In this document: positions 13,637 to 35,074 of the stretch, one piece after another
How the letters are laid out: every line of letters begins with the position of its first letter
Numbering within the stretch: position 1 is the first letter of the stretch
Origin: an uncultured Roseobacter sp.
Lineage (GTDB): Bacteria; Pseudomonadota; Alphaproteobacteria; Rhodobacterales; Rhodobacteraceae
NCBI GenBank assembly: GCA_913054455.1
Contig: CAJXIL010000007.1
Span: 1 to 50,394, forward strand
DNA length: 50,394 nt
Direction of reading: 5' to 3'
The notes under the pieces: model-generated
Told to the model about the DNA's origin: nothing
The model's database searches: none
What the model saw: only the letters and a program-made list of their open reading frames with translations
Program-made: the position numbers and the translations under genes

Positions 13637-15076
13637 GTGAGCTTTGCATTAAAACTGGGCGCTTCCGCGCTTGCACTAACAGTGGCCGCCACCGCGTCCT
13701 TCGCTGAAAGCCGTGCTGAATTCTGGAAAAATGCCGCTGAACCCTATCAGGGCGTAACCATCCGGGGTGTGACGGAATCATCGCCACCGTCGCTTTACAT
13801 CCGTGAAGTTCTTGCGCCGGAGTTCGAAGCTCTGACAGGCATTCGAGTTGATGTTGAAACCACATCTTGGGATCAGATGTTCGACAAGGCGATCAAGGAC
13901 ATGGAAGCTGGAACTGGCATCTACGATATGGCCTATATCGAACAGGACATTATCTATTCCTACCTTGCGCGAGGGTTCTTGACCGACCTCACCGGCTATC
14001 TGGCTGATCACCCAGCCCTGAAAGCGCCGAGCTACGACGAAGCCAACTTCACGACATTTGCGGACTATTTCAAAGATGCTGAAGGCAACCTTTATGGCGT
14101 TCCGATGGAGGCCTTCTTGAAGGTCTATCTCTATCGGACCGACTTGTTTGGAGATCCGGATATCCAGTCTGCGTTCAAGGCGCAGACCGGCCGTGATCTC
14201 GTCCCTGCCAAAACCCATGCCGAATATGCTGAAATCGCGCAGTTCTTTACCGACTACGGCAAGGCCAATGATATGGATCTGTGGGGCACGACAGCACAGG
14301 CGCATACCGGGCACGTGGCGTCCTGGTATGAATACTACGAGTCTGTTGCACCAACTTTCGGCGTCTATAATTGGGGCATTGATCCGGACAACAACTATGC
14401 GGCCTCTACCGCAAATGGCGGGGCGATGAATGGCCCGGAAGCCGTCGAAGCGATGACCTGGTGGCTGAGCATGCGCGATATTGCGCCACCAGAAAGCCCT
14501 GCCTCCACATGGACAGAAGTAGGCACAACCTTTGGCGCGGGCCGTGCAGCGCAGGGGCTTGTCTACGGCGAAAACGCCGGGTGGATCGCTGCGGACGCAG
14601 AAAAGTCCCTAGTTGTGGGCAAGGTCGGCGTGGCCTTGCCGCCACTCGCTGATGGTGTACTGGCCGAAGCGGAATCTGGCGACGGCTATATAGGCTACTA
14701 TGATGGCGGCGCGTTCGGTATGCCGCATTCGTCAAAGAACAAGGAAGCGACTGCGCTGTTCCTTCAGTACATTGGCCAGAACGAAGTTCAGCCAAACTGG
14801 GCCGTTGCTGCACCACGCGTGACGAATACAGCGACCTACGAAGACCCTAAGGTTGTTGCCTTCAACGAAGAGCTTGGCGGTTACTATGATTTGATCAAGG
14901 ACAAGGGCTACCTGTTTGCCGGGGCTCCGGCCTATCCGTTCCACGCGCAGGTGCGGGAAGCAACAGCGCCGATTTTCTACCAAATCCTGCTGGGCGATCT
15001 TGCCCCACAAGAAGGTCTTGACCAGATGGCAGCGGCTGCAGAGGCAACGCTTTCTGATCTTGGATACCGCAAGTAA
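13637..15076 (+). CDS. Polyol ABC transporter substrate-binding protein (SmoE-like)
   Basis: A 479-residue family-1 extracellular solute-binding protein. It has a Sec signal peptide (about residues 1-23, ending ASFAES) and then the fold seen in sorbitol/mannitol binding proteins, with TESSPPSLYIREVLAPEFEA, GVPMEAFLKVYLYRTDLF, GYYDGGAFGMPHSS and FAGAPAYPFHAQVREAT. It captures a polyol in the periplasm for the permeases encoded next. The start codon is GTG at 13637 with GGGAGG seven bases upstream. It is the first gene of the plus arm and is followed by a strong stem-loop (15098-15124) that may set its higher expression relative to the permeases. Sorbitol, mannitol and arabinitol are the likeliest ligands from family and context. 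Confidence 0.88.
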   Translation: MSFALKLGASALALTVAATASFAESRAEFWKNAAEPYQGVTIRGVTESSPPSLYIREVLAPEFEALTGIRVDVETTSWDQMFDKAIKDMEAGTGIYDMAYIEQDIIYSYLARGFLTDLTGYLADHPALKAPSYDEANFTTFADYFKDAEGNLYGVPMEAFLKVYLYRTDLFGDPDIQSAFKAQTGRDLVPAKTHAEYAEIAQFFTDYGKANDMDLWGTTAQAHTGHVASWYEYYESVAPTFGVYNWGIDPDNNYAASTANGGAMNGPEAVEAMTWWLSMRDIAPPESPASTWTEVGTTFGAGRAAQGLVYGENAGWIAADAEKSLVVGKVGVALPPLADGVLAEAESGDGYIGYYDGGAFGMPHSSKNKEATALFLQYIGQNEVQPNWAVAAPRVTNTATYEDPKVVAFNEELGGYYDLIKDKGYLFAGAPAYPFHAQVREATAPIFYQILLGDLAPQEGLDQMAAAAEATLSDLGYRK

Positions 15077-23028: not shown

Positions 23029-23056
23029 TGATCCAAAAATTGCGCCGACCCGTAGA
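23029..23056 (+). promoter_or_regulatory. ECF sigma (RpoE) promoter of rpoE-chrR
   Basis: TGATCC (23029-23034), 16 bases, then CGTAGA (23051-23056). The -35 agrees with the TGATCC of known Rhodobacter RpoE promoters, and the same TGATCC/N16/CGTA form recurs three more times in the following 3.6 kb. This suggests autoregulation. Six bases after the -10 lies ATGATGG (23063), so transcription would begin at or next to that ATG. Confidence 0.72.
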
Positions 23057-23062
23057 TTGGGT

Positions 23063-23692
23063 ATGATGGAAACAGTTTTAGAACATCCCCTTGCAGGCCC
23101 CGCGCATACAGGCCCGCCCCAAACAGGACGTGCCGTGCAGGTTCAAGCTCCGCAAATGTCCCAGGCAACTGTCTGGTTGGTCGCAGTCCGTGACCAGCGC
23201 GATAAGGATGCTTTTGGTGATCTGTTTGATTTCTTTGCACCTCGATTAAAAGGTTTCATCATGCGATCGGGCACGGGCGCGGCGCAGGCTGAAGAGATCG
23301 TTCAGGATGTGATGCTGACGGTGTGGCGCAAGGCGGCGATGTTTGATCCCCATCGGGCGCAGGCCTCGGCTTGGATTTATCAAATCGCGCGAAATCGGCA
23401 GATCGATATTATCCGCAAAGAAAGCCGTCCCATACCTGATGAGTTGGCGCAGGATCCCGAAGCTGAACCAGATGCAAGTCAAATCCTGGCGTTTGACCAA
23501 GAGGCGGATCAGCTGAAAACTGCCTTGGATTTGCTTCAGCCTGATCAGAAAGAGATGATCGAGAAAGCCTATATGGGTGATCTCACACATCAGGAAATCA
23601 GTGTTCAAACCGGACTGCCACTTGGCACTGTGAAATCGCGAATTCGCCTCGGCCTTAACCGTTTGCGCAAAGAATTGAAGGGGTTGCGATAA
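23063..23692 (+). CDS. rpoE: ECF sigma factor RpoE (ChrR-controlled, singlet-oxygen type)
   Basis: A sigma-70 family ECF factor. Region 2 is DAFGDLFDFFAPRLKGFIMR plus AEEIVQDVMLTVWRKA and RQIDIIRKE; region 4 is LLQPDQKEMIEKAYMGDLTHQEIS and GTVKSRIRLGLNRLRKEL. It is followed at once by a ChrR-type anti-sigma gene, the pair that in Rhodobacter sphaeroides controls the response to singlet oxygen. The start is uncertain. The ATG at 23063 lies at the predicted transcript start (a leaderless mRNA, 209 residues). A GTG at 23135 has AGGA six bases upstream and gives 185 residues, closer to usual length. The longer frame to 22991 would include the promoter and is rejected. Confidence 0.88.
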   Translation: MMETVLEHPLAGPAHTGPPQTGRAVQVQAPQMSQATVWLVAVRDQRDKDAFGDLFDFFAPRLKGFIMRSGTGAAQAEEIVQDVMLTVWRKAAMFDPHRAQASAWIYQIARNRQIDIIRKESRPIPDELAQDPEAEPDASQILAFDQEADQLKTALDLLQPDQKEMIEKAYMGDLTHQEISVQTGLPLGTVKSRIRLGLNRLRKELKGLR

Positions 23693-24328
23693 ATGTCTGC
23701 AATCACACACCATATTCCAGAAGATATGATGGCAGCCTATGCCTCTGGCACTCTGCCGCACCCCTTTGCAATGGTTGTTGCTGCTCATATCTCGCTTTGT
23801 TCGGAGTGTCGGGCGGCTTTGGGGGCTTATCACGCTGTTGGCGGCGCATTGCTGGAAAAGACCGCCAATATTGCTGTCACCAATAGTTTGAAATCCAATG
23901 TGATGGCTATGCTGGATACGCCGAGCCAACCCACACCGGTCTATGATGCTCAGGGTGTTTTTCCGGGGCCGGTAATGGAGGCGCTGCAAGGCAGATCGCC
24001 GCGTTGGAAGACGCTGGGCATGGGCGTGAAACAGAGTATCCTATCTGAAACAGACAGTGGATCTGTGCGCCTGCTTTACATCCCGGCAGGGCAAGCGGTT
24101 CCGGATCATAGCCACAATGGGCTGGAACTCACGCTGGTTCTGCAGGGGAGTTTCAGTGATGAAACCGGCCGCTTTGGAGTTGGGGATGTGGAGATCGGCG
24201 ACGAGGATCTGGAACATACCCCAATTGCAGATGCGGGCGATGCTTGCATTTGCTTGGCGGCGACGGACGCACCATTGCGATTTAACGCCTTCATGCCGCG
24301 CCTGTTGCAACCTTTTTTCCGCATCTAG
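23693..24328 (+). CDS. chrR: ChrR-family zinc anti-sigma factor
   Basis: A 211-residue two-domain anti-sigma factor. The N-terminal zinc anti-sigma domain keeps His6/7, H32, C36 and C39 (HISLCSEC), which hold zinc and the sigma factor. The C-terminal cupin domain keeps H139, H141, E145 and H175 (PDHSHNGLE; DLEHTP), offset by two from the residues that matter in R. sphaeroides ChrR. The full set of ligands argues that it senses singlet oxygen or organic peroxide and releases RpoE. Its start is directly after the rpoE stop, and a terminator follows. Confidence 0.92.
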   Translation: MSAITHHIPEDMMAAYASGTLPHPFAMVVAAHISLCSECRAALGAYHAVGGALLEKTANIAVTNSLKSNVMAMLDTPSQPTPVYDAQGVFPGPVMEALQGRSPRWKTLGMGVKQSILSETDSGSVRLLYIPAGQAVPDHSHNGLELTLVLQGSFSDETGRFGVGDVEIGDEDLEHTPIADAGDACICLAATDAPLRFNAFMPRLLQPFFRI

Positions 24329-24351
24329 GCACGATGGCAATAGCCCAGTTC

Positions 24352-24380
24352 AAAAGCCCGCTTGTAGCGGGCTTTTCTAT
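24352..24380 (+). terminator. Rho-independent terminator of rpoE-chrR
   Basis: A perfect 10-bp stem AAAAGCCCGC/GCGGGCTTTT (24352-24361, 24367-24376) with five-base loop TTGTA, followed by CTATTT. It lies 24 bases after the chrR stop. Confidence 0.88.
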
Positions 24381-24417
24381 TTAACACGCTGTATTTAATA
24401 ACATATTTGTGAGGTTG

Positions 24418-24445
24418 AGATCCGCCGGGCCTGACGGTTCGTACC
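24418..24445 (+). promoter_or_regulatory. Candidate RpoE promoter of the fasciclin gene
   Basis: AGATCC (24418-24423), 16 bases, then CGTACC (24440-24445). It has one mismatch from TGATCC in the -35, but exact spacing and the invariant CGTA. The predicted start leaves a leader of about 50 bases before the fasciclin ATG. Confidence 0.58.
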
Positions 24446-24502
24446 CTTAGTACGATCCAGAAGAAACAGAAAACAGACCCTATACCTGCTTGGAGAGAGA
24501 TC

Positions 24503-25018
24503 ATGAAAACCACATTCAAAACCACCCTTTCTGCCCTGGCCCTGGTAGCATCTGCCAGCGTCACACAGGCCAATACAATCGTAGAGATCGCAGCCGGGGA
24601 CGAGCGTTTCTCGACCTTAGTGGCGGCGGTTGGCGCGGCAGGGCTGGCGGATGCCCTGTCTGGACCGGGGCCCTTTACGGTCTACGCACCGACCAACCAG
24701 GCGTTTGCTGCCTTGCCGGAGGGCACTGTAGAGACGCTGCTGAAACCAGAAAACAAAGACCAGCTGACCAATGTGCTGTTGTATCATGTGGATGATCGCA
24801 AACTGTCTGCGGATATGATCCCTGTGGGCTCGAACTACTTCAAGCCCCTGCTAACAAACGAGCGTCTTTGCATAACGGCTGGGGAAGACGGGGTGAGCAT
24901 TGCTGATGGGACCGGGCAATCTGCCAATGTGGTGATCGCTGATATCCAGGCTGAGAACGGCGTGATCCATGTGATCGACAAGGTCTTGCTGCCAGGAAGT
25001 CGGCCAGCCTGCCACTAA
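24503..25018 (+). CDS. Secreted fasciclin-domain protein
   Basis: 171 residues. A Sec signal peptide (about residues 1-23, ending TQA) is followed by one fasciclin (FAS1) domain with H1-like FTVYAPTNQAFAALPEG, the central LLYHV and the C-terminal GVIHVIDKVLLP. Such proteins sit in the periplasm or on the cell surface and mediate adhesion, or have unknown redox or pigment links. Two cysteines (CITAG and the C-terminal PACH) could form a disulfide. GGAGAGAG precedes the ATG. The preceding promoter matches the RpoE form, so it is probably induced with the singlet-oxygen response. It converges with the SDR gene across a hairpin. Confidence 0.9.
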   Translation: MKTTFKTTLSALALVASASVTQANTIVEIAAGDERFSTLVAAVGAAGLADALSGPGPFTVYAPTNQAFAALPEGTVETLLKPENKDQLTNVLLYHVDDRKLSADMIPVGSNYFKPLLTNERLCITAGEDGVSIADGTGQSANVVIADIQAENGVIHVIDKVLLPGSRPACH

Positions 25019-25027
25019 TCGCAAATA

Positions 25028-25052
25028 CAGGCTCCGTTAATCGCGGGGCCTG
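25028..25052. terminator. Candidate bidirectional terminator
   Basis: Stem CAGGCTCC (25028-25035)/GGGGCCTG (25045-25052), eight pairs with one G-U, and a nine-base loop. It lies between the convergent fasciclin and SDR stops. There is no long T-run on either side, so efficiency is uncertain. Confidence 0.5.
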
Positions 25053-25053
25053 C

Positions 25054-25779
25054 TTATCGAAAACGATAGACCAGCCAGTCAGGCAAAAGCGCCAAGCCCT
25101 TAATGGCCCAAGAAAAAGGACGCGGGAAATCGGTCCGAAAGCGGCGTTTCTCCATGGCTCTGAGCACATGATCAGCGGCCGTTTCAGCCGACATCAGCTG
25201 GGGCATTGCAAAATCGTTCTTGTCCGTCAGGCGTGTTTTGATGAAGCCTGGATTGACTATACGCACGGTAACGCCGGTGCCTCTCAAGTCGTGTCGCATG
25301 GTTTCAGCTAGGCTGATCAGCGCAGCCTTGCTGGCGGCGTATCCAACTGCTGCCGGCAATCCGTGATATCCAGCCAGTGAGCCGACCAGGGTGATACTGC
25401 CCGCACCTTTGGCGATGAACTGAGGTAAGACATGCCCCAGAACCCGCAGAGCGCCAGCATAGTTCACATCCATCATCGCCAGGGCTTCGGCGCTGTCAAA
25501 ATCCTGGCTCCGCATCGGAACATAGGCTCCGGCATTATAGATAACCCCGTCGATTTGATCCAAGTCTTTGGCAGCTGCCGCGACTGAGCCGTCATCTGTC
25601 ACATCCATGGCCAATGGCGTAGCCGCGCCAAGGGCCCAGCTGAGTTGTTGCAATCGATCCTGTGATCTGGCGGACAAAACGACATGGGCCTCGGCCCCCA
25701 CCAAACCCCTGGCAATCTCCCGCCCCAGGCCTTCGCTGGCGCCGATCAACCAAAAGGTCTGGCCTTTCAGCGCGCTCAA
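25054..25779 (-). CDS. Short-chain dehydrogenase of the RpoE/lipid cluster
   Basis: A 241-residue SDR. The cofactor motif is GASEGLGR (in the variable TGxxxGxG position), with NAGAY and the catalytic Ser/Tyr/Lys set (TLVGSLAGYHG ... YAASK). The C-terminus has a hydrophobic patch (WAIKGLALLPDWLVYRF) suggesting membrane contact. It begins with TTG at 25779, overlapping the DUF1365 stop in TTGA, so its translation depends on the upstream gene. SDRs accompany DUF1365 and CFA-like genes in many proteobacterial clusters; a role in lipid oxidation or reduction is inferred. Confidence 0.85.
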   Translation of the reverse strand: MSALKGQTFWLIGASEGLGREIARGLVGAEAHVVLSARSQDRLQQLSWALGAATPLAMDVTDDGSVAAAAKDLDQIDGVIYNAGAYVPMRSQDFDSAEALAMMDVNYAGALRVLGHVLPQFIAKGAGSITLVGSLAGYHGLPAAVGYAASKAALISLAETMRHDLRGTGVTVRIVNPGFIKTRLTDKNDFAMPQLMSAETAADHVLRAMEKRRFRTDFPRPFSWAIKGLALLPDWLVYRFR

Positions 25780-26543
25780 GAGCCCACCCGTGAGGCTGTG
25801 GAGTCCGTGACTAGCGGCTTAGGGGGCTTTGGTTTGCGCATGAATGGTGCCCCTTTGATCCAGAGTTTCAACGCCTGCCAATAGATCAGTGCCACAACCC
25901 GAATGGCGCCCAAGGGTCGGCGCAGAGCCACCTTGGCCAAATTCGCTGTGGTGGCAGGGCGGCGCAACCCATTTAGTGTCGCCAACACGCCCTGATCGCC
26001 ATTCTCATAAGAAATGCGGATGTTAAAGGCACGCTCGGTCATTTCAAAGTTGAAGCGATAGAGGCCCTTTACCTGCTGAAACGGAGAGACATGCATCATT
26101 TTCTCGGCTTCAATTTGATCAGATCGCTGGATCGGACGAAATCCTTCATTGGCACAAAAATAGCAGTGTCGATGGCCAAAGGTATTGTTCACCTCGGCAA
26201 TGAAGGCACGTGGTGATCCGTCAATCACAGCAATCCAAAAGCTCACAGGATTGAAATGAAACCACAAAAAACTGGGTTGGGTCAGAAGTAGCAGCTGCGC
26301 CCGATCAGCTGGAAATCCGCGCTGAAGCAGCTCTTTGCGAAACCATTCGACGCCATTACCCTGACCCCGTGGCCCACCGTGGTGACTGTCTTTGAGCGAG
26401 AACAGGTTAAAGCGGTTGCGCGACAGGAGGGGCGCCGCGCCTTCCGTTAGATCGGTCAATACGTAATCAACACCATAACGAAAGGCGTTTTTCAGACTGC
26501 CGCGGCGGGCGTGGTAGGTTTGGGCTGAGACAAGTTCAATCAT
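25776..26543 (-). CDS. DUF1365 family protein
   Basis: A 255-residue DUF1365 protein: the family start IELVSAQTYHARRGSLKNAF, then VDYVLTDL, QPSFLWFHFNPVSFWIA, EVNNTFGHRHCYF and FHVSPF-like KMMHVSPFQQVKGLY. The family co-occurs with FAD amine-oxidase-like and CFA-synthase-like genes and is thought to act on membrane fatty acids; some of these clusters make methylated furan fatty acids. The start at 26543 matches family N-termini and lies six bases after a predicted RpoE -10 element, so the mRNA is probably leaderless. The open frame to 26684 would run through both divergent promoters and is rejected. Confidence 0.88.
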   Translation of the reverse strand: MIELVSAQTYHARRGSLKNAFRYGVDYVLTDLTEGAAPLLSRNRFNLFSLKDSHHGGPRGQGNGVEWFRKELLQRGFPADRAQLLLLTQPSFLWFHFNPVSFWIAVIDGSPRAFIAEVNNTFGHRHCYFCANEGFRPIQRSDQIEAEKMMHVSPFQQVKGLYRFNFEMTERAFNIRISYENGDQGVLATLNGLRRPATTANLAKVALRRPLGAIRVVALIYWQALKLWIKGAPFMRKPKPPKPLVTDSTASRVGS

Positions 26544-26549
26544 ACCTAA

Positions 26550-26577
26550 GTTACGCAAAGGGTTGGCGGCTGGATCA
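26550..26577 (-). promoter_or_regulatory. RpoE promoter of the DUF1365-SDR operon
   Basis: Read on the minus strand: TGATCC (26577-26572), 16 bases, CGTAAC (26555-26550), then TTAGGT and ATG at 26543. It is the same form and the same -10-to-ATG distance as at rpoE itself. Confidence 0.7.
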
Positions 26578-26606
26578 CTGCGTGGCCATTTTTTGTTTGG
26601 CAAGAG

Positions 26607-26634
26607 TGATCCGTGTCTTTGGTCCACGCGTAAT
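26607..26634 (+). promoter_or_regulatory. RpoE promoter of the FAD-oxidoreductase/CFA operon
   Basis: TGATCC (26607-26612), 16 bases, CGTAAT (26629-26634). It is back to back with the minus-strand copy. The leader of about 26 bases carries GAGGA before the ATG at 26667. Confidence 0.72.
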
Positions 26635-26666: not shown

Positions 26667-28016
26667 ATGCTTGATCAAACCCAAGGCCCGCGCCGCAAGG
26701 TCGCGATCATCGGAGGCGGCGTTTCTGGACTATCCGCAGCCTACTACCTGGCAGCCAAATCCGACGTGACTCTGTATGAAGCCGCGCCGAGGTTGGGGGG
26801 GCATGCGCGTACTGTTCTGGCAGGTAAAGATGGCAATCAGCCGGTGGATACAGGCTTTATCGTCTTTAACTATGCGACTTACCCCTATCTAACGCGGTTG
26901 TTCCGGGAACTGGATGTTCCTGTGATCAAAAGCGAGATGAGTTTTTGCGCCAGCATTGACGGTGGTGAAATCGAGTATGGGCTGAGCAGTCTTTCTGCGC
27001 TGAGCGCACAGAAGAGTAACCTGATCAGGCCGCAATTCTATAAGATGATTGCAGATATCATTCGCTTCGGCAAAGAGGCAGAGGCCGCAGCAACAGACGA
27101 CAGCAAGACCATTGGTGAACTGGTGGAGGAGCTGAAACTTGGGGCGTGGTTTCGCGATTACTACCTGCTGCCGATGTGCGGGGCGATCTGGTCTACTCCG
27201 GTGACCGATGTGGACGGTTTCCCGGCAAAGTCGCTGATTTCATTTTTCCGCAACCACGCTTTGCTGGCTGGAACTGGGAAACACCAGTGGTGGACCGTCA
27301 ATGGCGGCAGCATTGAGTATGTGCGCCGGTTGGAAACCGCTCTTGTTGCGCGCGGCTGCACCCTTCACACAGGTGCTCCGATTGAACAGGTGACCAGAAG
27401 CAAGAGAGGTGTTTCCCTGTTGGTTCAGGGTCAAGGTAAGCAAGACTTTGATGAAGTGGTTTTTGCTTGCCACTCGGATCAGGCACTGAAAATCCTTGGA
27501 CAGAATGCGACCGATGCGGAAACCGCGGCATTGGGGGCAATCCGCTACCAATCCAATACAGCCGTACTACATTGTGACGAAGGGCAAATGCCCAAGCGCC
27601 GCAGCTGCTGGTCTAGCTGGGCTTATCGTAGCCAGGATGGCGGGGTCGGCGTGACCTATTGGATGAACCGCCTGCAAAACATTCCTGAAAGCGACCCGCT
27701 GTTTGTGACGCTCAACCCGACCAGAGAGATCCCTGCGACCAAGATCTATGATAAGGTCGAGTTTGCCCACCCGGTCTTTGACCAAGGGGCGCTGCAGGCC
27801 CAGCGTGAACTGCGGGCCATGCAGGGCCAAAACCACACATGGTTCGCAGGCGCCTACAATCGCCACGGCTTTCACGAAGACGGAATTGCCAGCGCGATGC
27901 GGATTGTCCGCATGATGAACGCCTCTACCTCTATGACCGCAAAAGGATCCCAGCATGACATTGACGAACAATGCGATGAAAACGCAATTCCTGGAAACCT
28001 GCGCGCAACTGCGTGA
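26667..28016 (+). CDS. FAD-dependent amine-oxidase-like desaturase/oxidoreductase
   Basis: A 449-residue flavoprotein. The Rossmann motif is IIGGGVSGLSAAYYL (about residues 14-28), followed by YEAAPRLGGHA and TGFIVFNYATYPYL. C-terminal FAD contacts are in TWFAGAYNRHGFHEDGIASA. It belongs to the amine-oxidase-like group found beside DUF1365 and CFA-like genes. In R. sphaeroides an RpoE-controlled cluster with such genes makes furan fatty acids, and a FAD-type desaturase (UfaD) acts on methylated lipid chains; I infer but cannot prove this is the counterpart. The last 21 codons (62 bases) overlap the next gene, giving a hydrophilic tail beyond the usual domain end. GAGGA precedes the ATG. Confidence 0.87.
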   Translation: MLDQTQGPRRKVAIIGGGVSGLSAAYYLAAKSDVTLYEAAPRLGGHARTVLAGKDGNQPVDTGFIVFNYATYPYLTRLFRELDVPVIKSEMSFCASIDGGEIEYGLSSLSALSAQKSNLIRPQFYKMIADIIRFGKEAEAAATDDSKTIGELVEELKLGAWFRDYYLLPMCGAIWSTPVTDVDGFPAKSLISFFRNHALLAGTGKHQWWTVNGGSIEYVRRLETALVARGCTLHTGAPIEQVTRSKRGVSLLVQGQGKQDFDEVVFACHSDQALKILGQNATDAETAALGAIRYQSNTAVLHCDEGQMPKRRSCWSSWAYRSQDGGVGVTYWMNRLQNIPESDPLFVTLNPTREIPATKIYDKVEFAHPVFDQGALQAQRELRAMQGQNHTWFAGAYNRHGFHEDGIASAMRIVRMMNASTSMTAKGSQHDIDEQCDENAIPGNLRATA

Positions 28017-29112
28017 GGGACGCCTTACCCTGCGCACCCCAGATGGGGCGCGTTATCAGTTTGGCGATCACGGTCCAGAAGCAGAAATGGAAATTCGTGA
28101 TTGGGCAGCGGTCTCTGCTATGGCGGCCCACGGACAGGTCGGACTGGGCGAGGCCTATGTCCAGGGGCTTTGGGACACGCCTTCGATCGAGGGGCTGATG
28201 TCGCTTGCCATGGTGAACCGTGAACATATGGGCAGCTATGATCAAGCCAGCGCCTTCAACCGCGCAAAATTCCGTATTGTTGACCGTGTCCTGCGGGCGA
28301 ATTCCAAACGCGGATCGCGCAAGAATATTCGCGCCCATTATGATGTGGGGAACGAGTTTTATCAGCTCTGGCTCGATGAGGGCATGACATATTCTTCCGG
28401 CATCTTTGGCGATACAGGCGATGATCTTGCCCAGGCCCAGACCCGCAAGAACGAACGGGTCCTATCCCGGCTCAACCAAGGAGAGCGGGTGCTGGAAATC
28501 GGCTGCGGCTGGGGCGGTTTTGCCGAACAGGCCTGCGCCGAGGGGCGCGATGTGACAGGCGTCACCATTTCGCGCAATCAACATGCCTATGCGGATTGTC
28601 GGCTGGATGGGCGCGCTGATATTCAGTTGCGCGACTACCGCGATGTGCAGGGGCAATTCGACAATATCGTCTCCATAGAGATGATCGAAGCCGTTGGAGA
28701 AAAGTACTGGCCGAGCTATTTTTCCGCGCTCAAGCAAAACCTGTCGGCGGGTGGCCGGGTGATGCTGCAGGCCATCACAGTTCCCGACAGTTTCTTTGAA
28801 ACCTACCGGACCTCCTCTGATTACATCCGGCAGTACGTGTTCCCTGGTGGCATGCTCTTGTCCGATCAAGTGATCGCGAACCAGGCCAAGGGGGCAGGAT
28901 TGCAGGTGAAAAACAGTTTTGCCTTTGGAGAGGATTACGGAAAGACCTGCAGGATTTGGGCCCAACGTTTGGTGGCGCAGAAACGTAAAATCAAAGATCA
29001 GGGCTACGATGAAGGGTTCTTCCGCAACTGGCAGTACTATCTGGAGATCTGTGCAGCCTCCTTTGCGATTGGACATACCAATGTTGTCCAAGTCGAGCTG
29101 GCCCATGCGTAG
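27955..29112 (+). CDS. Cyclopropane-fatty-acid synthase-like SAM methyltransferase
   Basis: A 385-residue CFA-family enzyme that methylates unsaturated phospholipid acyl chains at the membrane. An N-terminal lipid-contact domain precedes the SAM-binding motif VLEIGCGWGGFAE. The family blocks AHYDVGNEFYQLWLDEGMTYS, IEMIEAVGEKYWP and YIRQYVFPGGMLLS are all present. In the RpoE regulon of R. sphaeroides, CFA-like enzymes make either cyclopropane or methylated (furan precursor) fatty acids. Co-location with the FAD enzyme and DUF1365 favours the latter. The start follows AAAGGA by seven bases and lies 62 bases inside the upstream gene. Confidence 0.9.
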   Translation: MTLTNNAMKTQFLETCAQLREGRLTLRTPDGARYQFGDHGPEAEMEIRDWAAVSAMAAHGQVGLGEAYVQGLWDTPSIEGLMSLAMVNREHMGSYDQASAFNRAKFRIVDRVLRANSKRGSRKNIRAHYDVGNEFYQLWLDEGMTYSSGIFGDTGDDLAQAQTRKNERVLSRLNQGERVLEIGCGWGGFAEQACAEGRDVTGVTISRNQHAYADCRLDGRADIQLRDYRDVQGQFDNIVSIEMIEAVGEKYWPSYFSALKQNLSAGGRVMLQAITVPDSFFETYRTSSDYIRQYVFPGGMLLSDQVIANQAKGAGLQVKNSFAFGEDYGKTCRIWAQRLVAQKRKIKDQGYDEGFFRNWQYYLEICAASFAIGHTNVVQVELAHA

Positions 29113-29599
29113 CCTGTTGCTTTGGACTTGCCTGTGCCTGGCGCCTGTCATTGCAGGCGCCTCGCAGCCAAGTAACCTGCCTCACGGGGCGGAACAACGC
29201 GGCGAAGCAGCGTTCAGTTTTCTAGGGTTTCAGATCTACAAGGCGCGCCTGTTTACCCTGGGCGGTCAGCCGTTGGATTGGTCGCAGGATTTTGGCCTTG
29301 AACTCACCTATCAGCGCCGGTTGAGCCAATCTGATTTGGTGGAGGCAACGCTGCGAGAAATGGCTCGGGTGGGGAATGCTCTGCCAATTCGGGGCCAATT
29401 GGAGAAATGCTACCAGCCTGTTGCGCCCGGAGACAGTTATCTGGCGGTCAGTGACGGGCCAGATCGGTTGACTTTTTGGCGCAATGGAGTGGCAGTCTGC
29501 ACTCTGGCCCAAGACGACATCAAAACCCGCTTTATGGAGATTTTTCTGGGTGAAGACAGCCGGTCAGCGCGGTTCACGCGGGCACTCTTAGGCCAATGA
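29105..29599 (+). CDS. Periplasmic chalcone-isomerase-like protein
   Basis: A 164-residue protein. A signal peptide (about residues 1-19, MRSLLLWTCLCLAPVIAGA) precedes a chalcone-isomerase-like (Chalcone_3 type) domain with FSFLGFQIYKARLF, FGLELTYQRRLSQSDLVEAT, YLAVSDGPDRLTFWRNG and the C-terminal FMEIFLGEDSRSARFTRALL. These domains bind fatty acids or lipids; no catalytic role is established. I start it at the ATG at 29105, eight bases inside the CFA gene, because it places the signal peptide correctly; the frame open from 28919 is antisense noise. It is coupled to the MFS gene by ATGA overlap. Confidence 0.8.
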   Translation: MRSLLLWTCLCLAPVIAGASQPSNLPHGAEQRGEAAFSFLGFQIYKARLFTLGGQPLDWSQDFGLELTYQRRLSQSDLVEATLREMARVGNALPIRGQLEKCYQPVAPGDSYLAVSDGPDRLTFWRNGVAVCTLAQDDIKTRFMEIFLGEDSRSARFTRALLGQ

Positions 29600-30825
29600 T
29601 GCATTATCCAAGGGTCAGCCTCTATGCCCTGGTGCTGGCCAGTGCAGGGATCCCATTGTACATTCATCTACCGCAGTTTGCGGCGACCGATCTGGGGCTC
29701 GGGCTTGGCACTTTAGGGAGCGTTCTGCTGGCGATCCGTGCCTTTGATCTGGTGCAGGATCCCCTGATTGGCTGGGCGGTGGACCGTTGGCCACAACGCC
29801 AATCCAGCTTTGGCTGGGCTGCTGCCCTCGGCCTGGCGGTGGGGTTCCCGCTGTTGTTTGGTTTGCAGCAGGGGCCCTATGTGTTGGTGAAAATGGTCTT
29901 GGTCCTGATCCTGTTGTTCTCAGCCTATAGTTTGGGGATGATCCTGCTCTATGGGCGCAGTGCAACGCTGAGCGTCTCACTGAAGCCACGTGATCTGATG
30001 ACGCTCGCCGCTTTTCGCGAAAGTGGCATGCTGATCGGCGTGATCTTGGCCGCCATTGCTCCAGCGCTGCTGGTTGGGCTGGGCGCAGAGGGGCAGGGCT
30101 ATGCGGCCTTTGGTCTTTTCTTAGGAGGCCTCGCCGTGATTGCCGCTTTATTGACCAGGCCGATCTGGAGGCGCCAGGCCGTGGTGGGACAGCCTCTTGG
30201 GTTAGCCAGTCTGTGGCAATCCGGAGCGACAAATTTGCTGGTCCTGGCAGTGCTAAATAGTCTGCCGGTGGCGCTGACCTCCACCCTGTTTTTGTTCTTT
30301 GTCCAAGACTACCTGGCTCTGCCAAAACTGGCGGGCCCGCTCTTGGTGCTGTTCTTTTTGTCGGCGGGGCTTAGCGTGCCGCTGTGGACCCTGCTGAGCC
30401 GTAGGATCGGTATTAAGCCGACGCTGTTAATTGCCATGCCTTTGGCGCTTACCAGCTTTGTTGGCGCCGCGTTCCTGGAGCCAGGGGATGCGGTGGGTTT
30501 CTCCCTGATCTGTCTGGCCTCGGGAGCGGCACTTGGCGCGGATATGCTGCTATTGCCCGCCCTGTTCAGTATTACCTTGACCAAAGCTGGCCTCAGCGCG
30601 GGTGCCGCCTTTGGGATCTGGTCATTCGCCGGGAAACTCGCCTTGGCCCTGGCGGCTGCAATCGCTTTGCCCCTGCTGGAGGCGCGAGGGTTCACCCCTG
30701 GAATGCCCAATACCGAAGCCGCGCTTGCGGCGCTTGTCACCGCCTATGCCATCCTTCCCTGTGTCCTGAAAACTGTGGCCTTTTGCTATGCGCTGAGGCT
30801 GCCTACCGAAAGTCCCACGTCATGA
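29596..30825 (+). CDS. MFS transporter (GPH/MelB-like) of the lipid cluster
   Basis: A 409-residue major facilitator with about 12 TM helices. The sequence after TM2 (AFDLVQDPLIGWAVDRWPQR) matches the GPH-type motif A variant D-P-x-x-G-x-x-x-D-R. The substrate is unknown; this carrier regularly sits beside DUF3833, CFA-like and chalcone-isomerase-like genes in proteobacteria, which points to lipid traffic. It overlaps its neighbours by four bases on both sides. Confidence 0.87.
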   Translation: MMHYPRVSLYALVLASAGIPLYIHLPQFAATDLGLGLGTLGSVLLAIRAFDLVQDPLIGWAVDRWPQRQSSFGWAAALGLAVGFPLLFGLQQGPYVLVKMVLVLILLFSAYSLGMILLYGRSATLSVSLKPRDLMTLAAFRESGMLIGVILAAIAPALLVGLGAEGQGYAAFGLFLGGLAVIAALLTRPIWRRQAVVGQPLGLASLWQSGATNLLVLAVLNSLPVALTSTLFLFFVQDYLALPKLAGPLLVLFFLSAGLSVPLWTLLSRRIGIKPTLLIAMPLALTSFVGAAFLEPGDAVGFSLICLASGAALGADMLLLPALFSITLTKAGLSAGAAFGIWSFAGKLALALAAAIALPLLEARGFTPGMPNTEAALAALVTAYAILPCVLKTVAFCYALRLPTESPTS

Positions 30826-31367
30826 AATTGCTCGCTGCCTGTCTCGTGATCTTGCTCATCGCTGTCATTGCAAAAACCTATTTGTTTAGTTTCCGCTTTC
30901 AGTCCCCGCGGGACTATGCGCAAACCGGACCACAATTTGACCTCAAGACACATCTCTCCGGGGAGATCCTCTCAGAAGGTCTTATCTTTGGGCCAAATGG
31001 CAAAATGACCAATAGTTTCACCGCTAAGATGGTTGGCTCTTGGCAGGGGGATACAGGCACCCTGACCGAAGAGTTCACCTATTCAAACGGCAAAACCCAA
31101 AGCCGGAAATGGTATTTGACCCTTGGACCCAATAACACTTTTACGGCAAAGGCTGATGATTTAGCCGGCGAAGGGCAGGGAGTTGTCTCAGGGTCGACCG
31201 TTCGCTTGAGCTATGAAATCATCCTCCCTGAGGAGTCTGGTGGGCATACCCTCCAGGCCACAGATTGGATGTACCTGACTGCAGATGGCGCGATCATGAA
31301 CAAATCCGAGATGCGCAAATTCGGCCTGAAAGTTGCAGAGCTCATCGCGACAATGCGGCCGATGTGA
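30822..31367 (+). CDS. DUF3833 family protein
   Basis: 181 residues. An N-terminal membrane anchor or signal (residues 1-18) is followed by a DUF3833 domain with FDLKTHLSGEILSEGLIFGP, WYLTLGPNNTFTAKADDLAG, LQATDWMYLTADGAIMNKSE and MRKFGLKVAELIATM. The function of the family is unknown; the barrel-like beta pattern and typical location beside CFA-like genes suggest a periplasmic lipid-binding role. I chose the ATG at 30822, overlapping the MFS stop (ATGA). It closes the operon, and no clear terminator was found in the following 137 bases. Confidence 0.85.
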   Translation: MKLLAACLVILLIAVIAKTYLFSFRFQSPRDYAQTGPQFDLKTHLSGEILSEGLIFGPNGKMTNSFTAKMVGSWQGDTGTLTEEFTYSNGKTQSRKWYLTLGPNNTFTAKADDLAGEGQGVVSGSTVRLSYEIILPEESGGHTLQATDWMYLTADGAIMNKSEMRKFGLKVAELIATMRPM

Positions 31368-32477: not shown

Positions 32478-33080
32478 TCAGGCAGCGTGGCTGCGAACGT
32501 TTTCGGCATCCACGGTCAGATGATAGGCTTGGCATGTTTCGCCACCAACTTCGAGACGGGGTCCCGCTGGAGAAATTGTTAACCCGGTGCGGCGCATCAG
32601 CAGACCAGCGGTAACGGAGGTGAGGCAGATATAGGCCTTAATGTTCCACGTCTCTGCCAGTCGGGCCAGGGTCAATCCGATTTCAGCTCTAATGCGCAGG
32701 CGGTCGCGGCTGCTCAGCGTGTCAGTTACAAAAACCCTGCTGACTTCCCATATGCCGGGATCCTGCGGCGCTGCTTCGTTAAGAATGTTCTTTGGCATAT
32801 CTGGCAACAGGCCCAGCTGGGCATCGCGCAGCATGTAGCTTGCGTTGAAGTTGTGGGCGGTTGTGGGGGTCACACGCAGCCCGCCATAGACGGTTAGCCC
32901 GTCGTGAATGACGCTATAGATGCTTTCCGGAGTGTCATACTGGTCGAACTCGAGCCCACGCGTGTTTGGCAGTTTCCAGCCGCGGGTCTCAATGAAGTGG
33001 TGATACCTGGCGCGTAGGAGCGCGGTGAACAACGTTCCGGTTTGCCCCAAGTTGTCAAAGGTGATTTCTGTCGATTGCAT
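32478..33080 (-). CDS. Acyl-homoserine-lactone synthase (LuxI family)
   Basis: A 200-residue autoinducer synthase that joins an acyl group to SAM-derived homoserine lactone. The family's near-invariant residues are present: R25, F29, W35 (RARYHHFIETRGW), E44/D46/D49 (EFDQYDTP), R69 (GGLRVTP), E112 and R115 (WEVSRVFV). The C-terminal half is the variable acyl-carrier-facing region. No LuxR gene lies nearby. The next gene upstream on the same strand is a hybrid kinase with a multi-TM sensor, 132 bases away. Acyl chain length cannot be judged. Confidence 0.9.
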   Translation of the reverse strand: MQSTEITFDNLGQTGTLFTALLRARYHHFIETRGWKLPNTRGLEFDQYDTPESIYSVIHDGLTVYGGLRVTPTTAHNFNASYMLRDAQLGLLPDMPKNILNEAAPQDPGIWEVSRVFVTDTLSSRDRLRIRAEIGLTLARLAETWNIKAYICLTSVTAGLLMRRTGLTISPAGPRLEVGGETCQAYHLTVDAENVRSHAA

Positions 33081-33156
33081 TGGGGCGTCTACCCGCTTGT
33101 TTGTTTGAACCGATCAAGACAGAGCCTTGAGGGATTCGATTGAGTTTAAATCAACT

Positions 33157-33174
33157 TTTACAGGCAATCGTAAA
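33157..33174. promoter_or_regulatory. Dyad upstream of luxI
   Basis: TTTAC (33157-33161) and GTAAA (33170-33174) form an 18-base dyad about 80 bases before the luxI start, in an AT-rich spacer. It could be a regulator site; it does not match the classical 20-base lux box closely. Confidence 0.3.
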
Positions 33175-33211
33175 TTTTACATTAACTTAACAGAGCTTAC
33201 TTCGCGGCGGT

Positions 33212-35011
33212 TTACTGTGCTGAACGCGCTGGCGGTGTGTCTGGCTGTGAGATCCAAGGGGTCTCTTGGCTGGTTGCAGCAACTTTACGGATCTCAGACA
33301 AGAGGACCGCTTTTTTCACGGGCTTGGCGATATAGCTCTGTGCGCCAAGTGCCATAAAGCGCTCCCGGTCTTCGGGTGCGGCGTTGGCGGTCAACATGAC
33401 CACAGGCGTCGCGCCGATCTGTCCCCCCCGGCGGGCCATCTCTACCAGAGTTTCTTCACCATCCATGACTGGCATCTTCATGTCCAGTAAAACCAGATCT
33501 ACTGGGCGCTGTTCCAGACACTCGAGTGCCTTTGCACCATCTTCGGCCTCGATGATTTCGACATTACTCTTCTTCAAAAAGGAGCGGACGACCATACGAT
33601 TTGACTGGGTGTCATCGACCAGCAAAATGGATTTGATGCCAAGGTCGAAGTCGTTGCCCTGCGGGAGGGCGTGAACAGTGCTTTGAAATGGTGCCGATGC
33701 GGGCAGGGCGGTTTCGGGCTGGCTGAGGACTTTGATCTGACAGGTGAATGTGAAACAGCTGCCCAACATGGGAATGGTGCTGACGGAAATATCACCGCCC
33801 ATCATTTTTGCGAACCGTCGCGCAATGGCGAGCCCTAGGCCCGTCCCCGGAACTGTCGGGGCATTCTTATCCTCAACCCGATAGAACTCGGTGAAGAGAT
33901 GCGGCACCTGATCTGCAGCGATACCGCGTCCGGTATCCGAAACCTGGATGGTCAAGACAGAGGGGGCTACAGCGGTGTCAGCCGCCACATGGACTTTGAC
34001 CTGCCCTGTTTCCGTAAATTTGACCGCATTGGATACCAGGTTTCCGATTACCTGCCTGAGCCGGAGGGAGTCGAACTCGGCATAGGGGGGAACACTGTCC
34101 GCAAAGCTAAGATCAAACTGCAGCCCTTTTTGTTCCGCATGCGCTCGAAACATCTCCACTGCACTGGTGACTTCATCCTGCGGTATCGCCGGGACAGGGT
34201 TGGCCTCTATATGGCCGGATTCCACTTTGGCGTGGTCAAGAATATCATTCAGAATCCCGGTGAGAGCCTGAGAAGATTTTTGCAATAACTGGCTGCGCTC
34301 CCTCCGGGTTTGAGGGTCAGCATCTTCCTCGTCCATGAGTTCAGCCATGCCACAAATGGCGTTCAGGGGGGTACGGATCTCATGGCTCATGGAGGCCAGA
34401 AAACGGCTCTTAGCGCGGCTTCCGGCCTCAGCGGCGCTTAAGGCATCGCGTAGTCGATCGGTCATTTGATTGAGCGACCACATGCTATGTGCCAAGTATC
34501 CCGCTCCGAGTACCAGTATGACCACGGCGATGCCGATCTCAACTGGGGTGGCAAAGGAGTGCAGGAAGCTGACTATCATAAAGGCAACCGCGCAAATGAT
34601 GGGCATCGCGGTCACCAGGCCAAAGAGCATCCATTCCGCACGGGCAACCACACTGTGATTAAGCGCGATCACCAAGAGCATTGTGCCCGCCAGTTTTGGA
34701 AAGGCATCGGGCTGCAAAAAGAGCAGGAGGGGGATACTGTTGAAAAGCAAGATGCCAAAGAAGGCAGATGTAATGAACAGCGCCACCCCCGCCATGGTGA
34801 CTTTGCGTTCCAGCGAGCGGTATACAAAGAGGCCGACCAGTTCGATGAAGGCGATCCCGAAGTAGAGTAGAGCCACGGTTTGAAGCGGAAGATAGTAAAG
34901 CGACAGGAAGGCAACGACTGTGATTGAGGCAAAGCGAGAGGGCAGGTCTTCGCGGACCAGCCTGTTCTGAGCCGACACCGAAGCCTTAAGGTCTGGTGAT
35001 AAAATCAACAT
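33212..35011 (-). CDS. Hybrid sensor histidine kinase with multi-TM sensor
   Basis: 599 residues. The N-terminal region has about six TM helices (about residues 26-178) and hardly any periplasmic loop. It is followed directly by HisKA (H210 in FLASMSHEIRTPLNA), an HATPase (NLVSNAVKF, DTGRGI, GTGLGLAIARRF) and a receiver (DD at 466-467, D510 in LVLLDMKMPVMDG, Lys in IAKPV). No HAMP or PAS domain is present. This layout, a helix-bundle sensor plus kinase plus receiver, is like CqsS of Vibrio. Lying next to luxI, it may detect a lipid-like signal. The ATG at 35011 has AAGGA eight bases upstream; ATG 35017 and TTG 35074 are alternatives. A separate phosphotransferase would be needed to pass the signal on. 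Confidence 0.87.
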   Translation of the reverse strand: MLILSPDLKASVSAQNRLVREDLPSRFASITVVAFLSLYYLPLQTVALLYFGIAFIELVGLFVYRSLERKVTMAGVALFITSAFFGILLFNSIPLLLFLQPDAFPKLAGTMLLVIALNHSVVARAEWMLFGLVTAMPIICAVAFMIVSFLHSFATPVEIGIAVVILVLGAGYLAHSMWSLNQMTDRLRDALSAAEAGSRAKSRFLASMSHEIRTPLNAICGMAELMDEEDADPQTRRERSQLLQKSSQALTGILNDILDHAKVESGHIEANPVPAIPQDEVTSAVEMFRAHAEQKGLQFDLSFADSVPPYAEFDSLRLRQVIGNLVSNAVKFTETGQVKVHVAADTAVAPSVLTIQVSDTGRGIAADQVPHLFTEFYRVEDKNAPTVPGTGLGLAIARRFAKMMGGDISVSTIPMLGSCFTFTCQIKVLSQPETALPASAPFQSTVHALPQGNDFDLGIKSILLVDDTQSNRMVVRSFLKKSNVEIIEAEDGAKALECLEQRPVDLVLLDMKMPVMDGEETLVEMARRGGQIGATPVVMLTANAAPEDRERFMALGAQSYIAKPVKKAVLLSEIRKVAATSQETPWISQPDTPPARSAQ

Positions 35012-35074
35012 TCGCATTATCCTTGCGGCGTCCTTCACATCGTTCCTTGTTGGCAAACCAAACGCCGATAACAA

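Follow-up and report, generated by a model that had tools for sequence, protein, structure and literature searches.

A probable autoregulated ECF11 sigmaE-ChrR regulon in an uncultured Roseobacter with predicted leaderless rpoE and DUF1365 mRNAs

A contig of 50,394 nucleotides from an uncultured Roseobacter sp. (CAJXIL010000007.1, positions 1 to 50,394, assembly GCA_913054455.1; this whole stretch is referred to as the window) carries rpoE, encoding an extracytoplasmic function (ECF) sigma factor, immediately followed by chrR, a fasciclin gene and two units of lipid-related genes. The question raised by this locus is which genes the sigma factor (sigmaE) serves and at which nucleotide their transcription and translation begin. 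We consider it probable, at roughly 85%, that the locus represents an autoregulated ECF11 sigmaE-ChrR regulon whose transcripts are predicted to start at an A located at +8 after a conserved CGTA element, the mRNAs of rpoE and of a DUF1365 gene being putatively leaderless. The features on which this reading is based are the following (aa, amino acids; nt, nucleotides).

23029 to 23054, plus strand: sigmaE promoter of rpoE-chrR, TGATCC-N16-CGTA (pattern match)
24418 to 24443, plus strand: sigmaE promoter of the fasciclin gene, AGATCC-N16-CGTA (pattern match; CGTA kept in chrR-linked fasciclin genes)
26552 to 26577, minus strand: sigmaE promoter of the DUF1365-SDR unit, TGATCC-N16-CGTA (pattern match; conserved in relatives)
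26607 to 26632, plus strand: sigmaE promoter of the FAD-oxidoreductase operon, TGATCC-N16-CGTA (pattern match; 30 distinct sites in relatives)
23063 to 23692, plus strand: rpoE, 209 aa, with an in-frame ATG 8 nt downstream of CGTA as predicted leaderless start (Sigma70_r2 and r4, Pfam)
23135 to 23692, plus strand: rpoE from an internal GTG with AGGA 6 nt upstream, 185 aa (near where the R. sphaeroides RpoE chain 2q1z_A, 184 residues, begins)
23693 to 24328, plus strand: chrR, zinc anti-sigma factor with cupin domain (Cupin_7; 2z2s and 2q1z); its ATG overlaps the rpoE stop (TAAATG)
25776 to 26543, minus strand: DUF1365 protein, with a predicted leaderless start at an ATG 8 nt downstream of CGTA (PF07103 from residue 5)

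The reading of the locus as an RpoE-ChrR regulon, put forward in an original prediction made from the letters of the window, is well supported by a promoter form corresponding to that of Rhodobacter sphaeroides, by the complete set of ChrR ligands and by the retention of the sites before the same genes in relatives. As expected of an ECF11 system, an ECF sigma factor comprising regions 2 and 4 is encoded beside a ChrR-type anti-sigma factor, and TGATCC-N16-CGTA precedes rpoE itself as an autoregulatory promoter. SigmaE sites are likewise present before the core lipid genes, namely the FAD-oxidoreductase/cfa operon and the unit of DUF1365 and a short-chain dehydrogenase (SDR). In R. sphaeroides the promoter has been published as TGATCC(N15)GCGTA (PMC5036791). 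The ChrR protein aligns over nearly its full length with ChrR of R. sphaeroides (2z2s, 2q1z), the nearest solved chains being 2q1z_A and 2z2s_B. All eight zinc ligands, listed in a review (PMC6852236) as His6, His31, Cys35, Cys38, His141, His143, Glu147 and His177, align to identical residues, as implied by the earlier description of this ChrR as fully ligand-complete.

The four sites, in each of which hexamer and CGTA are exactly 16 bases apart, are all found at the positions originally proposed. The accompanying statement that the other intergenic regions lack this form holds as well, the fifth match of the window (14255 to 14280, minus strand) being located inside an open reading frame (ORF; 13637 to 15076). 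For WGATCC-N16-CGTA these five matches compare with 0.08 expected, and none of 100 shuffles reaches five. A scan of the source genome (3.88 Mb, 86% complete) with TGATCC-N16-CGTA, which had been recommended with the prediction, yields 18 matches; the other spacers between 10 and 22 bases give 1 to 11 apiece (63 in total over these twelve spacers). According to inspection of ORF lists by eye, three of the 18 are situated in the block, three are intergenic elsewhere and 12 reside inside long ORFs, the latter figure exceeding the mean of the other spacers. For AGATCC-N16-CGTA the genome has 11 matches; of the ten besides the fasciclin site, one, at window position 14255, was examined in its context. 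Within 30 ChrR loci of the family, the own one included (109 kb), 47 matches of WGATCC-N16-CGTA are opposed to seven over the twelve other spacers. The large share of exact genomic matches within long ORFs could be taken to indicate that the four sites are mere coincidence. This is, however, refuted by conservation at N16 alone, and both the spacer counts and the window shuffles rule out a chance origin, the likelihood of which we regard as practically nil.

A feature shared by all four window sites is an A at +8 after CGTA. The distance between CGTA and the start codon amounts to 8 bases for rpoE (in-frame ATG 23063; 80 to GTG 23135), 59 for the fasciclin gene, 8 for DUF1365 and 34 for the FAD-oxidoreductase gene. 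Conservation was followed in 65 rpoE-chrR loci, 30 of them from a genus sample including the own locus and 35 from named records (with the near-duplicates L020/L087, L048/L102 and L019/L098 among them). The rpoE site is present with at most one mismatch in 63 of the 65 loci and exact in 60. In an alignment of 105 promoters from relatives, anchored at CGTA, the commonest bases from +8 to +12 are A, T, G, A and T (91, 73, 67, 55 and 69 of 105, respectively). At rpoE, an ATG is observed exactly at +8 in 56 of 63 loci, and in 55 of these 56 it is in frame and stop-free to the sigma core; a cruder test based on the longest ORF gave 48. Among 17 distinct DUF1365 sites in relatives, 13 have an ATG at +8 and three at +11, and since the DUF1365 domain starts at residue 5 there is hardly room for a later start. 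FAD-oxidoreductase promoters, in contrast, retain A at +8 in 23 of 30 sites with ATG in a single one, and fasciclin promoters retain it in eight of ten with ATG in none. An assignment of the ATG to the promoter consensus is ruled out, as both of these promoter groups keep the A without the TG, and we thus predict transcription to start at this A. No Shine-Dalgarno-like word precedes the first in-frame ATG in any of 59 distinct rpoE upstreams, and at DUF1365 merely 8 nt lie between CGTA and ATG in the 13 relatives mentioned above. The mRNAs of rpoE and DUF1365 are therefore probably leaderless, as far as can be judged from the sequence. The Shewanella rpoE2 and pgpD promoters, which are of the same form, start at a mapped A (PMC4336711), the cited passages giving no distance. 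Among the matches listed in open-licence PMC literature, a scope to which older regulon papers do not belong, no report of a leaderless ECF11 rpoE was found. As a separate observation, the second codon of rpoE, counted from the first in-frame ATG, has T at its middle position in 51 of the 59 distinct upstreams. Furthermore, RpoE of a Qingshengfaniella plasmid (L266, 2989 to 3555) is annotated from a TTG 107 nt after CGTA while an in-frame ATG is located 8 nt after CGTA.

To judge the breadth of this arrangement, 100 genomes, one per genus, were scanned, with ChrR places taken at E <= 1e-45. The pattern TGATCC-N16-CGTA-N8-ATG is present at 68 places in 56 of the 100 genomes, compared to one match of a reversed control pattern. 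At 55 of the 66 ChrR places it coincides with the rpoE promoter; of its remaining places, five are otherwise near chrR and eight elsewhere, and only two of these eight begin longer gene-like ORFs. In one of these relatives (L275) the ATG at +8 of an exact site begins a DUF3833 protein, and in the other (L271) an ORF of 241 aa which resembles TspO by eye and has no Pfam match. The Rhodobacter side was sampled in 394 genomes, among which R. sphaeroides itself does not figure (the best match to its ChrR being 70% identical). Of the 30 distinct strict sites there, 28 carry the ATG at +8, and in every one of these 28 it is in frame and open. At least three of the loci concerned (from G084, G095 and G071) belong to the first set, too.

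Besides the ATG at the predicted start point, rpoE possesses a second candidate start. In 53 of 58 loci a start-type codon, mostly GTG, is found between 4 and 10 codons ahead of the sigma core; a control stretch lying 14 to 20 codons ahead of it contains one in 17 of 58. On the Rhodobacter side the figures are 26 of 30 versus 13 of 30, whereas in other families they are 11 of 18 versus 10 of 18, so that the codon is not kept there. GTG 23135 of the window lies within about two residues of the start of the R. sphaeroides chain. Almost all of the hydrophobic codons found seven positions ahead of the core are of the start type (0.39 of 0.42), which makes a mere conserved amino acid an unlikely explanation. 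The notion that the extension between both starts is a conserved peptide is unsupported, its amino acids drifting though the frame is kept (10 loci). Two translation starts joined by an unconstrained linker suit these data better than a functional peptide. Tentatively, and at somewhat less than even odds, we propose for Rhodobacteraceae and, more loosely, for other Alphaproteobacteria that translation of the ECF11 sigma factor proceeds from a leaderless mRNA opening with the start codon. In Rhodobacteraceae a second, conserved in-frame start at least 24 or so codons later would be used as well, giving two forms in a ratio set by the choice of ribosomes between leaderless and internal initiation.

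The following course of events may be envisaged. ChrR would hold sigmaE until photo-oxidative damage leads to the destruction of ChrR, which is known for R. sphaeroides and would apply here by extension. Freed sigmaE would then read its own operon, the fasciclin gene, the DUF1365-SDR unit and the FAD-oxidoreductase/cfa operon as well as, elsewhere in the genome, folE2, an operon for glutathione peroxidase (GPx), DCC1 and TspO, and possibly hemH. Transcription would begin at the A 8 nt after CGTA, which at rpoE and DUF1365 would be the first base of the in-frame ATG. As sigmaE keeps the internal start, usually GTG, near its core, the protein may exist in two forms, one long and one short. Translation of a leaderless rpoE followed by the overlapping chrR could, by analogy with the acuR operon of R. 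sphaeroides, keep the anti-sigma factor in excess over the sigma factor.

The gene adjoining chrR and a hairpin preceding it require separate consideration.

24355 to 24373, plus strand: terminator-like hairpin, 7-bp stem followed by a T run, between chrR and the fasciclin gene (by eye)
24503 to 25018, plus strand: fasciclin-domain protein, 171 aa (PF02469, 1.5e-30)

Owing to this hairpin with its T run after chrR, the fasciclin gene probably needs a promoter of its own; a terminator scan recovered a shorter version of the hairpin, its five matches overall, however, not exceeding those in shuffles (3.9). A sigmaE site does precede the gene and is kept in orthologues, with a weak first hexamer in the clade of the window. 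In the original prediction the fasciclin protein figured as an addition to the known lipid genes, which is incorrect: RSP_1409 (Beta-Ig-H3/fasciclin) is already contained in the RpoE regulon table of R. sphaeroides, the log2 changes recorded for photo-oxidative stress being 2.8 and 4.5 (PMC7074977, Table 1). In addition, an Azospirillum fasciclin gene under RpoE-ChrR control is cited in PMC10949492. Both entries rule it out as a new target.

The prediction had also confined the regulon to one block. Four sites are indeed assembled there, but the regulon reaches beyond it, since the same site is found before folE2, the GPx-DCC1-TspO operon and hemH. The exact site at C18:19591-19616 precedes folE2, a known regulon member in R. 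sphaeroides, while that at C2:33162-33187 precedes the operon of glutathione peroxidase, DCC1 and TspO (Pfam). For the latter, 30 loci were fetched from the 46 of 100 genomes with a match, and 11 of the 30, including the own one, show an exact site 22 to 43 nt upstream of GPx. A third exact site, C86:6978-7003, lies before hemH (ferrochelatase).

Several observations weigh against the picture outlined so far. At rpoE, three of the 65 sites read TGATCT and two loci (L095, L101) are without a site; seven of the 63 loci lack an ATG at +8 (six have it at +9 to +11), and in L113 the ATG is out of frame. Other alphaproteobacterial families are looser, 15 of 18 distinct strict sites outside the family having an ATG at +4 to +13; 12 ATGs are in frame and open, four are at +8, and the most frequent position is +9. 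The hemH gene carries the site in only three of 30 loci, the own one included, so that its status as a widely conserved target is unsupported. In this 86% complete genome, the loci of the three best matches to an RpoH model (one above the cut-off; the third in a frame of 663 aa and probably another sigma factor) contain no site with up to one mismatch, and rpoHII was accordingly not recovered as a member. Of 40 fasciclin upstreams, 16 do not beat their own shuffles, and the hexamer of the window's fasciclin site begins with A (AGATCC), its nearest relative, MED193, having AGATCT. Finally, the segment between both rpoE starts is little constrained, with 552, 557 and 625 differences at codon positions 1, 2 and 3 in 10 loci.

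The fasciclin data might be explained by a decayed site or a chance match, the gene then being outside the regulon of this strain. In favour of this are the hexamers just described as well as the score of the window site in a position weight matrix, which at 8.6 is barely above the best of 50 shuffles (8.4). It is opposed by the finding that the best-scoring site of the chrR-linked fasciclin genes, own included, ends in CGTA in 12 of 12 cases, ten of them at -84 to -87, even if choosing the best-scoring site per upstream has some selection built in. The first hexamer of these sites varies (AGATCC, AGATCT, AAATCC, ACATCC, TGAACC, TGATCC), but 24 of the 40 upstreams score higher than any of their own 50 shuffles, and TGATCC-N16-CGTA precedes the gene in six relatives (L021, L025, L028, L054, L073, L077). 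Decay of the site is hence rather improbable to us. Somewhat less improbable, yet still unlikely, is that the regulon is real while its natural signal is not singlet oxygen but, as reported for Caulobacter, organic peroxide, UV-A or metal stress. Further inducers are mentioned for ECF11 systems in review literature. This ChrR, however, keeps all its zinc ligands, including Glu147 and His177, which are reported as necessary for the response, and the lipid genes belong to a type that has been linked with turnover of ChrR. Singlet oxygen as presumptive inducer is carried over from R. sphaeroides by analogy.

The main rival to the proposed leaderless start assumes that rpoE is translated from the internal GTG exclusively, the start-point ATG being a by-product of a preferred initial transcribed sequence from which nothing is made. 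It accords with the vicinity of the internal start to the R. sphaeroides chain start, with the excess of start-type codons 4 to 10 codons before the core, and with an upstream segment almost free of amino-acid constraint. Moreover, in a case of this kind the later start was chosen by the authors for Bradyrhizobium ecfF (PMC3420878). On the other hand, the ATG is no part of the promoter consensus, as is evident from its near absence from the FAD-oxidoreductase and fasciclin sites, and the in-frame, stop-free continuation into the sigma core that 55 of 56 of these ATGs show would be needless if the ATG were never read. We regard translation from the GTG alone as the strongest of the competing explanations but nevertheless as unlikely, and retain the leaderless start as the preferred one.

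The remaining genes of the block are listed below.

25054 to 25779, minus strand: short-chain dehydrogenase (SDR), overlapping DUF1365 (PF00106)
26667 to 28016, plus strand: FAD-dependent amine-oxidase-type oxidoreductase (PF01593)
27955 to 29112, plus strand: cyclopropane-fatty-acid-synthase-type (CMAS) methyltransferase (PF02353)
29105 to 29599, plus strand: ORF of the FAD-oxidoreductase operon, ATG overlapping the previous stop (open frame)
29596 to 30825, plus strand: MFS transporter, MFS_2 (PF13347)
30822 to 31367, plus strand: DUF3833 protein, from the first ATG (PF12915 on the longer ORF 30783 to 31367)

The longer ORF 28919 to 29599 of the FAD-oxidoreductase operon has no Pfam match. 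Just past the lipid operon, at 32478 to 35074 of the window, an autoinducer synthase (Pfam) adjoins a hybrid histidine kinase.

Of the 100 genera sampled, 55 follow the ATG rule against a background of drifting sequence, which suggests a layer of translational control on a textbook pair of sigma and anti-sigma factor. If the proposal of two starts is true, the choice between leaderless and internal initiation could couple the balance of both factors to the condition of the translation machinery during stress. Gene callers may misplace the RpoE start, as in the Qingshengfaniella plasmid record.

Compared with known systems, the locus most closely recalls R. sphaeroides, whose RpoE regulon table (PMC7074977) includes rpoE, chrR, cfaS, phrA, RSP_1087-1091, rpoHII, RSP_1409, folE2 and others. 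Common to both are the promoter form, the ChrR ligands, rpoE-chrR itself, the fasciclin gene (RSP_1409) and folE2 (RSP_1852). RSP_1087-1091, described as an SDR, a hypothetical protein, a symporter and two cyclopropane-type proteins, resemble the lipid genes found here. Unlike the situation in R. sphaeroides, the fasciclin gene adjoins chrR and the GPx-DCC1-TspO operon carries a site, while rpoHII, a member in that table, has no counterpart with a site among the three best RpoH-model matches. The rpoE2-chrR system of Shewanella oneidensis (PMC4336711) shares the promoter form and has a periplasmic glutathione peroxidase and a ferrochelatase as targets; there, pgpD and hemH2 are under one promoter, whereas GPx and hemH are apart here. 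With Azospirillum brasilense the locus shares a fasciclin gene under RpoE-ChrR (cited in PMC10949492), a role in flocculation being reported for that organism. A parallel to the predicted leaderless rpoE is offered by the acuR-acuI-dddL operon of R. sphaeroides (PMC3017554), the mRNA of which begins at the AUG of the regulator without a convincing Shine-Dalgarno site, the regulator being translated far less than the genes following it. That operon is governed by a repressor and its start was mapped by RACE, whereas the start proposed here is predicted from the sequence and accompanied by a second in-frame one. Altogether, the regulon extends a well-studied singlet-oxygen system to another roseobacter and adds little by itself, both it and its fasciclin member being of kinds already known, while the putative leaderless arrangement with two starts is the part worth testing.

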